DNA of 45,841 nucleotides from Microcaldota archaeon (lineage in GTDB: Archaea; Micrarchaeota; Micrarchaeia; Anstonellales; Bilamarchaeaceae), in contig JAUSHJ010000007.1 of assembly GCA_030648615.1 (NCBI GenBank), forward strand, positions 1 through 45,841, given 5' to 3'. How positions within the stretch are numbered: the stretch's first letter is position 1; each line of letters begins with the position of its first letter. This document shows positions 1-41,460 of this stretch, piece after piece. Both the position numbers and the translations under genes were made by a program. The notes beneath the pieces were generated by a model, which worked only from the letters and a program-made list of their open reading frames with translations, was not told where the DNA came from and ran no database searches.

Positions 1-236
1 TTGTTTTCAACAGAAAACAATGTACAATTATTTTCTAAAGAAAATAATGCACATTAACAACATTTTCTAGGTTGTTAATCGTGCATTGACGCGGTTTCCG
101 CGTCAATTATTGACACGAATCGTCGTGTCAATGCATCAACAACCTTTGTTGTTGATTGTATCTTGTTGCTCAAAGCATTGTCGGCAGGGAATAAAAATGC
201 TGACAATATTTGACGCAGCTGCGTCAAAGCAACAAG
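1..236. repeat. Tandem array of eight non-identical stem-loops
   Basis: Consecutive inverted repeats with little between them: 1-7/14-20, 27-34/41-48, 53-61/71-79, 85-94/98-107, 109-118/123-132 and 135-143/148-156. These are followed by a branched unit whose outer stem 162-170/228-236 encloses 177-186/198-207 (one G-T pair) and the 20-bp perfect palindrome 209-228. Stems are 7-10 bp, loops are mostly 3-11 nt, and centres lie about 25-30 bp apart. Several linkers contain TGCA or TGTACA. The array starts at the window edge and may continue upstream. No two stems are identical, so this is not a CRISPR. An open frame at 86-268 is an artefact of the repeats. Function unknown. Confidence 0.85.
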
Positions 237-283: not shown

Positions 284-1051
284 ATGACTAAAATACTTTT
301 TACTTCGCATAATATCGCAAGCAAGAATATTGCGGATGCAATTATTGCTAGAAGCTTGAAAGTGAAGAATGAAAGCTATAATTACGAACTGATTGATACT
401 GGAGTTCCAAGTATTCTCGATGTTCCGACTGATTTTAATGATGAATTACTAGTGGTTCTGAGCACGCACAAAAGTAAGAATCCGCAAACGATTTTTACTG
501 CGCACTACCCTGGCAACTGGAACGTTGCTGATTTCGGGGGAGATGACAAGACGCTTAATACTGCTTACGCAAGCAAACTAAAGGCAATTTTAATGAATGT
601 AAATGAGATTAACAAGCGCGAGAACTTTGGGTGGAATGTTTCGCTTGAAGCAGACCACCACGGACCTACTTGTTCTGTTCCAATCATATTTGCAGAGATT
701 GGTAGTGAGGAAGCACAGTGGAAAGACAAGAAAGCTGGTGCGATAATGGCTGAAGCTGTACTTGAAGCGATTAAGAGCGAGAAGAAGTTTGAAACTGTCT
801 TTTGTGTTGGTGAAGGGCATTACCCAAAGACATTTAATAAAATTGAACTTGAGAGCGAGTATGCCATTGGGCATATTTTGCCGAAATATCAAATAGAGAA
901 TCTTGATGAAAAGTTGTTTGAACAGGCGATTAAGAAGAATGTCGAGCCAGTGAAGAAGGTATTTGTGGTGAAAGATAGCCTGAATGTGAAGCAGAAGGAG
1001 AAGATAAAAGACTTTTGTAATATCTTTAGTGTAGAGCATATTGAAGTCTAG
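284..1051 (+). CDS. dtdA: D-aminoacyl-tRNA deacylase (DtdA, archaeal type)
   Basis: 255 aa, usual size for archaeal DtdA/GEK1. The enzyme hydrolyses D-amino acids from mischarged tRNA and is zinc-dependent in studied archaea. Visible family blocks: HYPGN near residue 74, EADHHGPT near 123, VGEGHYP near 176 and GHILPKY near 193, which carry the conserved His/Asp/Glu residues. The start is supported by GAGGTG nine bases upstream. It reads away from a stem-loop array and is followed by an A-rich dispersed repeat and a separate downstream gene with its own ribosome binding site. Cytoplasmic; identification is by motif and is confident. Confidence 0.93.
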   Translation: MTKILFTSHNIASKNIADAIIARSLKVKNESYNYELIDTGVPSILDVPTDFNDELLVVLSTHKSKNPQTIFTAHYPGNWNVADFGGDDKTLNTAYASKLKAILMNVNEINKRENFGWNVSLEADHHGPTCSVPIIFAEIGSEEAQWKDKKAGAIMAEAVLEAIKSEKKFETVFCVGEGHYPKTFNKIELESEYAIGHILPKYQIENLDEKLFEQAIKKNVEPVKKVFVVKDSLNVKQKEKIKDFCNIFSVEHIEV

Positions 1052-5594: not shown

Positions 5595-5665
5595 GTCCAA
5601 TTTTTTGTTTCGAACAAAAAATGGACCATAAATTGTCGTTACAATTTATCGATCTTGAGTATCGA
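5595..5665. repeat. Stem-loop array upstream of the TRAM gene
   Basis: Three adjoining stem-loops. GTCC-A bulge-ATTTTTTGTT (5595-5609) pairs with 5613-5626; 5628-5636 pairs with 5641-5649; 5649-5653 pairs with 5661-5665. The first stem's bulged A, the following GGACC linker and the AAATT-type second stem are shared with the array inside pheS at 9673-9722, although the stem sequences differ. Confidence 0.75.
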
Positions 5666-9597: not shown

Positions 9598-11103
9598 TTA
9601 ACCTTTATGATGCCTAGTCACATCCCTTGAATTTTTGAGGAATTCAAGGTCAGTGCGGCTTCGTGCCACATCTCCAATTTTTCCACTCTTGGAAAAATGG
9701 ACCCCAAATTCACTAGAATTTGTAGGTCTTGAATTCTTAAGGAATTCAAGGTCGTTCTTATAAATTGTCCTCATGTCCTTGATATCAAGCTGCATCATTA
9801 GGGGTCTCTCTAGACTAAGACCCCATGCAAGAACCGGATAAGTATTAGCGAGAGGTATGCTAACTTCTGGCCTAAGTATACCAGCACCACCTATTTCCAT
9901 CCACTCCTGTTTAGGTTCATAAAATATTTCTATTTCTAAGCTAGGTTCCGTATAGGGAAAGAAACTTGGCCTGAATCTTATTTTTTCAAAACCCAACTTT
10001 CTGTAAAATTCCTTTAGAATACCTAGTAAGTCCCTAAAACTTGCATCTTTCCATGAGATTATGCCTTCCACCTGATGGAACTCCGCAAGGTGCTTATAAT
10101 CTGTAGCTTCGTTCCTAAAAACTCTGCCTATAGTAAAATATTTTTTTGGTTTATCATTCTTAAGTGCAGCAACATATCTTGCACTAAGAGCAGTAGTGTG
10201 GGTTCTAAGCACAGTTCTTTTCGCTTCCTCTTCACTCCATTGATATTTCCAGCCTTCTTCGTGTGCTTTTTTTACTCGTGCAACTAGTTTAGAATCAAAC
10301 AGTTCTGATTTTTTATTTAAATAAAATGTATCTGCAAGTTCACGAGCAGGATGATCCTGAGGTTGAAATAGTGCATCAAAATTCCAAAAAGTACTTTCTA
10401 CGATGTCTCCTTCCATTTCTTCAAAACCCAGTTCTGCAAATATTTGTTTTATACGGTCAGTCATTTTAGTTACTGGATGATTTTTTCCAACCTGAGCATC
10501 CGAACTTTCAACTGAAACATCAAAACTTTCTTCTGAAACGTGATAAGGTTTCCCAGTGTAATGAACCAATAGATCTTTTGTTATTGATTGCGTAAAAAGT
10601 TTCCTTGTAATAAATTCTTCTTTTAGTTCTAATGAGATGTCTTTTAATTTGTCTTCAGGATTTTCACTAATTTTAGTAGCCAATGCATTACAAAATTCGG
10701 TTCTTTTCTTTTCTACTGCAACTTCAGTATCCCTAGGAATAATATTACCATTTTCTATTGTAATAAAACCTTTTGATTTTGCCCATCTTATTTCTGACAG
10801 TTCGTCTTGAGATAGTTCTCCTGCTGATAATTTTTTTCCCTGTAGTTTTGCATCCATTGCTTTCTTAAAAATTAGAAATTCTGGACCTCCAGAACGATAT
10901 CCATGAGCTTTGGTTGTAACAAATAAATTTTCCTTTCCAGATTGACTCTGCTCCACTGAAACATAGCCATTTTCTTTCAGAGATTCGATTATCCTTCTGA
11001 CGCTATCTATATTTAGCTTCGTTTCTAAAGCGATATATTCTAATGACATTATTGAATTTCTAGATTTAATGAGTTCAATAACTTTGTCTTCCCCTACATA
11101 CAT
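9598..11103 (-). CDS. pheS: Phenylalanyl-tRNA synthetase alpha subunit with an extended tail
   Basis: 501 aa from ATG 11103 (a GTG four codons earlier is possible). Class II synthetase core; charges tRNA-Phe with PheT, which is not in the window. N-terminal winged-helix region to about 75, motif 2 (GRVFRNEATDYKHLAEFHQVEG region) and motif 3 (AWGLSLERPLMM). The native end is probably ...YKNDLEFLKNSR; a further ~42 residues include a second copy TDLEFLKNSR. That tail is encoded by a palindrome array and looks like an in-frame insertion. A tRNA-Phe gene lies elsewhere in the window (22829). Confidence 0.93.
   Translation of the reverse strand: MYVGEDKVIELIKSRNSIMSLEYIALETKLNIDSVRRIIESLKENGYVSVEQSQSGKENLFVTTKAHGYRSGGPEFLIFKKAMDAKLQGKKLSAGELSQDELSEIRWAKSKGFITIENGNIIPRDTEVAVEKKRTEFCNALATKISENPEDKLKDISLELKEEFITRKLFTQSITKDLLVHYTGKPYHVSEESFDVSVESSDAQVGKNHPVTKMTDRIKQIFAELGFEEMEGDIVESTFWNFDALFQPQDHPARELADTFYLNKKSELFDSKLVARVKKAHEEGWKYQWSEEEAKRTVLRTHTTALSARYVAALKNDKPKKYFTIGRVFRNEATDYKHLAEFHQVEGIISWKDASFRDLLGILKEFYRKLGFEKIRFRPSFFPYTEPSLEIEIFYEPKQEWMEIGGAGILRPEVSIPLANTYPVLAWGLSLERPLMMQLDIKDMRTIYKNDLEFLKNSRPTNSSEFGVHFSKSGKIGDVARSRTDLEFLKNSRDVTRHHKG
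9625..9750. repeat. Stem-loop array forming the 3' end of pheS
   Basis: Stems: 9625-9633/9641-9649; 9673-9685/9690-9701 with a bulged A at 9676; 9705-9711/9716-9722; 9728-9736/9742-9750. A weaker stem lies near 9653-9668. The first and last units are diverged copies of the same ~25 bp (CTTGAATTyTTrAGGAATTCAAGGTC), about 102 bp apart, so the insertion keeps the reading frame (34 codons). Confidence 0.8.
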
Positions 11104-11116
11104 AAAATCAACCACT

Positions 11117-22773: not shown

Positions 22774-22859
22774 AAACTAACTTAATCCGTCAGTTTTATA
22801 TTAACTTCTTCTAAGAAATATCTTATATGCCACGGTAGCTCAGTTGGTAGAGCACACCT

Positions 22860-22899
22860 GTTTCTTTTAGATCTTTTTCTCCTAAAAGAATCTGTGAAG
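22860..22899 (+). other. Proposed tRNA-Phe intron 1
   Basis: 40 nt lying on the 5' side of the anticodon loop. It contains a perfect 9-bp hairpin (TTCTTTTAG/CTAAAAGAA). Placement 5' of the anticodon is non-canonical; the usual archaeal site is 37/38. Confidence 0.5.
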
Positions 22900-22907
22900 C
22901 TGAAGAA

Positions 22908-22924
22908 TTTTCCAACTTAGAGAC
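22908..22924 (+). other. Proposed tRNA-Phe intron 2
   Basis: 17 nt between positions 39 and 40 of the mature tRNA. Removal is needed to pair 31 with 39. Short but within the range reported for archaeal tRNA introns. Confidence 0.45.
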
Positions 22925-23002
22925 GGTGGGGTCGCTTGTTCAAATCAGGCCCGTGGCATTGTGCCGAGGTAGCCCAGCTTGGTTTAGAGCGCCAGACTCA
23001 TA

Positions 23003-41354: not shown

Positions 41355-41453
41355 CTTGTCGCTCAGAGCGACAAGATGCCCACATTATTGTTGCTTTGCA
41401 ACAATATGCATATTGCCCAACGCTTTGGGCAATCATGTTGTTCTGTAGAACAA
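41355..41453. repeat. Stem-loop array after aIF5B
   Basis: Four stem-loops: 41355-41363/41367-41375, 41386-41394/41398-41406, 41412-41420/41425-41433 and 41438-41444/41447-41453. Centres are 23-31 bp apart; linkers include TGCA. The first stem CTTGTCGCT/AGCGACAAG equals the outer stem at 162/228 except for one compensated pair (C-G against T-A). Confidence 0.85.
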
Positions 41454-41460
41454 TTGGGGG

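Follow-up and report, generated by a model that had tools for sequence, protein, structure and literature searches.

Hairpin chains in Micrarchaeota genomes: probable lineage-specific palindromic DNA elements, dispersed between genes and in frame within them

The stretch of DNA analysed here (45,841 nucleotides, hereafter the window) opens with a chain of hairpins of a kind that recurs throughout the sampled part of its genome. We consider it probable that these arrays form a family of palindromic DNA elements, dispersed, non-autonomous and specific to a lineage within Micrarchaeota, and that they spread and maintain their arms in the way proposed below. The arrays are dispersed, exchange modules at hairpin boundaries, were inserted after divergence from relatives, reside in frame within proteins and keep Watson-Crick pairing; the elements are probably selfish. 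From this distribution we infer that the arrays are mobile, and recombination between them would account for part of the shuffling. The window corresponds to contig C29; the draft genome to which it belongs (G000) has 1.65 Mb in 76 contigs, and all genomes compared are draft metagenome assemblies.

The hairpin array at the contig edge

Six hairpins with perfect stems of 8-10 bp cover 138 of the first 156 bases, at the places where a preliminary description of this DNA had put them (Table 1). The last part of the array is predicted to fold into the three-way junction that had also been claimed, with an outer helix at 162-170/228-236 and inner helices at 177-186/198-207 and 210-216/221-227; the number claimed, eight stem-loops, was corrected to nine helices. 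In the predicted fold, hairpins 2-6 are enclosed by the 5-bp helix 22-26/157-161. The free energy of bases 1-236 is -99.6 kcal/mol compared to -50.7 +/- 4.7 kcal/mol for 200 dinucleotide shuffles (z = -10.3), none of which folds as well, and no cluster of at least three perfect hairpins was present in ten shuffles of the window. The preliminary description was right that the array is not a chance arrangement. A search of Rfam with the window's array gave no family at the gathering score and no credible family at a relaxed threshold, in agreement with the earlier opinion that it fits no standard repeat class.

The preliminary description took base 1 as the start of the array, which did not hold. 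Contigs C70 and C71 have ends that match bases 1-137 with 100% identity; the copies there carry further hairpins upstream of the shared block, and one more three-hairpin module is present in the left flanks of both. As the window begins at a contig edge within a repeat, the array extends past base 1. Almost the same block is carried by the start of C24, with a different hairpin in place of hairpin 6; rightward of the shared block, the window continues with hairpin ATCAACAACctttGTTGTTGAT and C24 with TCAACACaatcGTGTGTTGA, each of which pairs perfectly or nearly perfectly. Individual parts recur as well: the ATTATTTTC class has 50 matches in the stretches of G000 that were read (both strands counted), the unit of hairpins 4 and 5 is found elsewhere in other contexts and in both orders, and the CTTGTTGCT/AGCAACAAG hairpin has a loop of 3 nt elsewhere.

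The window holds three arrays detected by the scan described below and one two-hairpin array. It also holds, at 22829-22958, what is probably a tRNA gene with an intron: the Rfam match spans 130 nt with the model complete, a hairpin-rich insert lies within it, and the gene was missed by ARAGORN.

Table 1. Coordinates of the hairpin arrays and neighbouring genes in the window
Feature	Position	Strand	Remarks
Hairpin array, left end cut by contig edge	1..236	.	RNA fold z -10.3; 1-137 repeated at the ends of C70 and C71
Hairpin 1, ATTRTTTTC class, one base missing at the edge	1..20	.	
Hairpin 2, ATTATTTTC class	27..48	.	
Hairpin 3, ATTAACAAC	53..79	.	
Hairpins 4 and 5 (ATTGACGCGG, ATTGACACGA), two-hairpin unit	85..132	.	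hairpin 4 at 85-107, hairpin 5 at 109-132
Hairpin 6, ATCAACAAC	135..156	.	
Multibranch domain, closing helix 22-26/157-161	22..161	.	predicted fold
Three-way junction, CTTGTTGCT/AGCAACAAG hairpin with a two-hairpin module in its loop	162..236	.	predicted fold
Archaeal D-aminoacyl-tRNA deacylase gene (PF04414)	284..1051	+	48 bp downstream of the array
Second array type, GTCCA-hairpin-TGGACC-hairpin module	5595..5655	+	upstream of the next reading frame
PheRS alpha-subunit gene, array-encoded C-terminal extension	9598..11115	-	match to Pfam PF01409 stops at residue 461 of 505
TGGACC-type array within the last part of the PheRS alpha gene, between the copies of an imperfect 22-bp direct repeat	9625..9753	-	
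Array of a CCC...GGG four-way module and one CTTGT hairpin	41355..41458	-	between convergent genes

Number, build and distribution of the arrays

Arrays were scanned for as at least three hairpins with perfect stems of at least 7 bp, loops of 3-12 and gaps of at most 20 bases. The hairpin-run search that had been proposed earlier found 25 arrays in 380 kb of G000, a count that rises to 28 in 426 kb when the window is included; shuffles of the 380 kb gave none. Counting two-hairpin arrays, they make up about 0.9% of the 426 kb. The density of about one array per 15 kb sampled may be somewhat high, because the sampled contigs were picked for holding matches; extrapolated from about a quarter of the genome, the whole would carry about 100 arrays.

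The arrays are chains of about 3-12 hairpins, built as concatenated modules in which the stems recur as classes. Two modules are commoner than all others, CCCA-hairpin-CAY(hairpin)RTG-CRY(hairpin)RYG-TGGG, which spans about 84 nt as a four-way junction, and TCCA-hairpin-TGGACC-hairpin-GGTC; the ends of modules pair too, as in CCCA-(three hairpins)-TGGG. When the window's array, together with the C70/C71 flank, was compared with copies on C43, C24, C31 and C35, hairpins lying between conserved neighbours were found to differ, and in the homologous arrays of C70, C53 and C65 whole hairpin pairs are gained or lost precisely. Of 210 ends of homologous blocks, 111 (53%) lie in linkers compared to 22% expected, an excess for which no p-value is given because the blocks are not independent. 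No shared termini are evident among the G000 copies. In another genome, G034, near-identical copies of a related hairpin element occur at the ends of four contigs (C17, C68, C83 and C86; L277, L278, L280 and L281), bounded by the inverted repeat GTGACCGAA...TTCGGTCAC; this terminal repeat was seen in the G034 form only, which may have multiplied recently and seems to have defined termini.

Arrays were present in few related genomes, a distribution that bears out the earlier expectation of arrays in relatives. In small samples, the sister-genus genome G013 and the related G007 have densities like that of G000, fewer arrays were seen in G001, and most other relatives sampled had none. Arrays related by sequence are limited to a few genera of one family: the motif ATTRTTTTCnnnnGAAAAYAATGYRC was found in 4 of 301 genomes of the class; four genera are represented among the 6 of 43 family genomes that carry a second module, GGACCACAAATC...GATTTGT. 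No array match was found in phage and plasmid records, nor any match of one motif in viral contigs. When named genomes were scanned for a motif, the only hits were Micrarchaeota assemblies with arrays (UBA10214, RIFCSPLOWO2_12_FULL_37_11) and one match in Thiomargarita, which lies inside a gene, has no hairpins and was discarded as chance. Two other genera carry GC-rich clusters of three and four hairpins of unrelated sequence (L218:6865-6946 in G015 and L219:28-118 in G016), which are perhaps independent element families of the same style.

Most arrays are intergenic and some lie in frame within protein genes. The intergenic arrays comprise 10 between tandem, 4 between convergent and 2 between divergent genes; given intergenic lengths of 24.6, 6.0 and 11.5 kb, respectively, there is no orientation bias, and a role as terminators was rejected on this ground. 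On C53 of G000 (L287, near 3337), the start of a HisF-like gene is directly adjoined by a TGGACC-type array whose last hairpin extends into the reading frame.

Arrays within protein genes

Three conserved proteins of G000 carry array-encoded segments that are present in none of the aligned relatives. ATP-citrate lyase has a 41-residue insert in its citrate-binding domain, absent in four aligned relatives, one of which has an identity of 78% upstream and 76% downstream of the insert. In phosphomannomutase about 37 residues, absent in seven relatives, are inserted between domains I and II, and PheRS alpha has a C-terminal extension of about 40 residues that is absent in six aligned relatives. 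In AlphaFold models, the ATP-citrate lyase insert (residues 328-369) is a low-confidence loop (pLDDT about 26-39; mean of this model 70, moderate) and so is that of phosphomannomutase (residues 125-166; pLDDT about 28-46), in a model that is otherwise confident. The array-encoded segments would add unstructured loops or tails to essential enzymes.

The C-terminus of the G013 Pop5 protein is formed by an array: PF01900 extends to residue 146 of its 194. The encoded peptides recur: SRPTN..F.VHFS....KIGD is found again in a different gene of another genus, the PheRS tail shares peptide with two G013 paralogues, and the ATP-citrate lyase insert shares it with the Pop5 tail. Peptides shared between unrelated genes indicate that one frame is reused across genes and genera, as in the palindromic elements of Rickettsia (RPEs). 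The two G013 paralogues (L241:2705-3631 and L242:1121-2098) have no Pfam match and have the array-encoded segment in common, so that it was inserted before the duplication or copied between them. Open frames through arrays are in modest excess (2.2 compared to 1.4 in shuffles), for which reason we make no claim of selected frame preservation.

Target-site duplications are not consistent among copies, and a clear direct repeat was seen at the PheRS copy only. This imperfect 22-bp repeat is itself a near-palindrome of the native gene end, and its sequence suggests that the target may have been palindromic. An insert of another kind was noted in the large subunit of archaeal DNA polymerase D of G000 (L059:12359-16357); it is intein-like, starts with CFHPQTRIL and ends with ...NNGIFCIR before the host residues CDGDEDC, instead of the usual HN.

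Stem changes, possible origins and known systems

The preliminary description held that selection is on pairing and not on sequence, and pairing is indeed kept while the stem sequence differs among copies. The four-way module, aligned in 13 copies, has 98.5% paired cells and 28 two-sided changes, and 0 of 500 shuffles reach as high a value. The second module (13 copies, four genera) is 99.2% paired, a level that no shuffle reaches, with 24 two-sided changes compared to one G-U. When partners were slid by one to three columns, pairing fell to 29-49% in both modules. Among copies 96-100% identical, 0 of 623 stem bases are changed compared to 10 of 167 loop bases; among copies 80-90% identical there are 62 compensated pair changes and 10 single ones, with no G-T among the singles, these change counts being taken from related copies in which events are not independent. 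Differences between whole hairpins are confined to the loop in 57 cases, consist of one or two compensated pairs in 42 and include a single change or gap in 30; in the last group, most such changes lie at or beside the loop. At the variable pair of ATT?TTTTC...GAAAA?AAT, A-T was counted 36 times, G-C 24 times and a mismatch never (both strands counted). No excess of G-T over A-C was seen across arrays. RNA selection normally leaves G-U intermediates, and their near-absence is suggestive of a DNA-level process that keeps the stems perfect, either rewriting of arms or movement of perfect hairpins only.

In the mechanism that we propose, copies would spread via an enzyme or a replication process acting on hairpins in single-stranded DNA. 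The arms would stay perfect through template switching at the replication fork, in which one arm repeatedly serves to rewrite the other; alternatively or in addition, only perfect hairpins may move. We infer that arm-to-arm copying, selection or both account for the perfect arms. Most copies would be selfish or neutral, and those borne by genes may survive where the reading frame is open and the position is in a surface loop or at a terminus. A bolder form of this mechanism, put forward tentatively and with less than even chances, is a class of mobile element in which a single hairpin or hairpin pair is the moving unit, inserted and excised at linkers and loops by a hairpin-specific single-stranded-DNA process, with one arm rewritten from the other. 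If true, such elements evolve by whole base-pair changes, and branched arrays also create new protein segments.

Several other origins can be weighed against the same data. The arrays could be cis-acting structured RNAs (3' UTR stabilisers, terminators, leaders or small RNAs) selected on RNA folding; the preliminary description had listed structured RNA among possible roles. The folds are very strong, conserved and branched with covariation, the majority of arrays are intergenic, there is a small G-U excess (module strand, outer closing pair), and selection on a structured RNA likewise keeps stems paired. However, G-U intermediates are nearly lacking in the stems with no G-T excess over A-C, gene orientation is unbiased, copies lie within proteins and the window's array has no Rfam family at the gathering score, and we regard an RNA function as rather unlikely. 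A conventional origin as MITEs of a cut-and-paste insertion sequence, with incidental internal hairpins, would explain short, dispersed elements in many copies, and the G034 form, with its inverted repeat GTGACCGAA...TTCGGTCAC and several near-identical copies, resembles such an element. The inconsistent target duplications, the G000 copies without evident shared termini and the gain or loss of internal hairpins as units make it very improbable.

The suggestion that the hairpins are substrates of an HUH-type or REP-associated enzyme, in the form of a present or past hairpin-specific Y1 transposase in an archaeal counterpart of REP/REPIN-RAYT, fared poorly and is now unlikely. Two-hairpin units do move as blocks and G000 has a single Y1 transposase (L082:9323-9805, at the end of C47), but this copy is IS200-like with its own hairpin ends, and no array lies in its 9.8 kb of sequenced surroundings. 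GTAG/CGTC feet are practically lacking: the motifs occur 7 times around 176 hairpins. A Y1 match is present in several relatives in which no arrays were detected, whereas the array-bearing G001 and G013 have none, which is weak evidence because these genomes are only 75-89% complete. Serine recombinases were not found in nine genomes; G000 has two tyrosine recombinases, one on a contig ending in an array, and XerA-type enzymes are general in archaea. These searches for Y1 transposases and for serine and tyrosine recombinases found neither an autonomous full-length parent nor a mobilising enzyme, and the family of non-autonomous palindromic elements is the reading we retain.

Among known systems, the closest kind by behaviour is the protein-coding palindromic elements of Rickettsia and Wolbachia. 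RPEs are palindromic dispersed repeats, located between genes and in frame in unrelated genes, whose peptide recurs across genes (PMC10969869, PMC2229807). Like these and the Wolbachia elements, the Micrarchaeota arrays are short, palindromic and dispersed, both intergenic and within genes; like RPEs, they are inserted in frame where orthologues have no insert, and the encoded peptide is common to different genes. RPEs differ in that each is a single element, about 105-150 bp long, of a bacterial endosymbiont; their repeat identity reportedly fades with time and their stems reportedly decay (PMC6649704), whereas the Micrarchaeota elements are modular chains of about 3-12 hairpins in a DPANN host, with stems that stay perfect despite sequence change. 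Compared with RPEs as described in the open-access literature, modularity, many stem types and near-wobble-free perfect pairing set the family apart. Since the motif scan of the genome collection hit Micrarchaeota alone, apart from the chance match in Thiomargarita, we do not assign the family to the RPEs. Archaeal palindromic elements with coding potential, fused into protein genes, are cited for M. jannaschii in PMC2229807; as far as that citation describes them, they resemble the arrays as archaeal palindromic repeats in protein genes.

Like REP, BIME and REPIN sequences (PMC3733652), the hairpins are dispersed, extragenic and combined as mosaics; unlike REP/REPIN-RAYT systems (PMC3733652), the arrays have no GTAG/CGTC foot and no linked RAYT, and they show many stem sequences per genome and intragenic copies. 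The repetitive hairpin-forming elements of sponge mitochondria (PMC2800124) share multi-hairpin motifs, perfect stems, a scattered phylogenetic distribution and some copies in genes, but belong to organelle genomes and have a few recurring hairpin types, whereas the arrays are archaeal and built of exchangeable modules of many stems. Maintenance of hairpins by template switching predicts perfect stems, two-sided changes and no G-U intermediates (PMC8794818), and this matches the arrays; yet this is a process of mutation, deduced from RNA genes, and no class of dispersed element. The near-exclusively compensated Watson-Crick stem swaps, in four genera and many copies per genome, provide a data set for setting selection against template switching. 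In-frame palindromic elements were already known from Rickettsia and Wolbachia and reported from one methanogen; their occurrence in DPANN archaea, in a modular multi-hairpin form and in proteins that include a tRNA synthetase, an RNase P component and a subunit of citrate lyase, broadens the view that in reduced genomes selfish palindromes contribute material to protein evolution.
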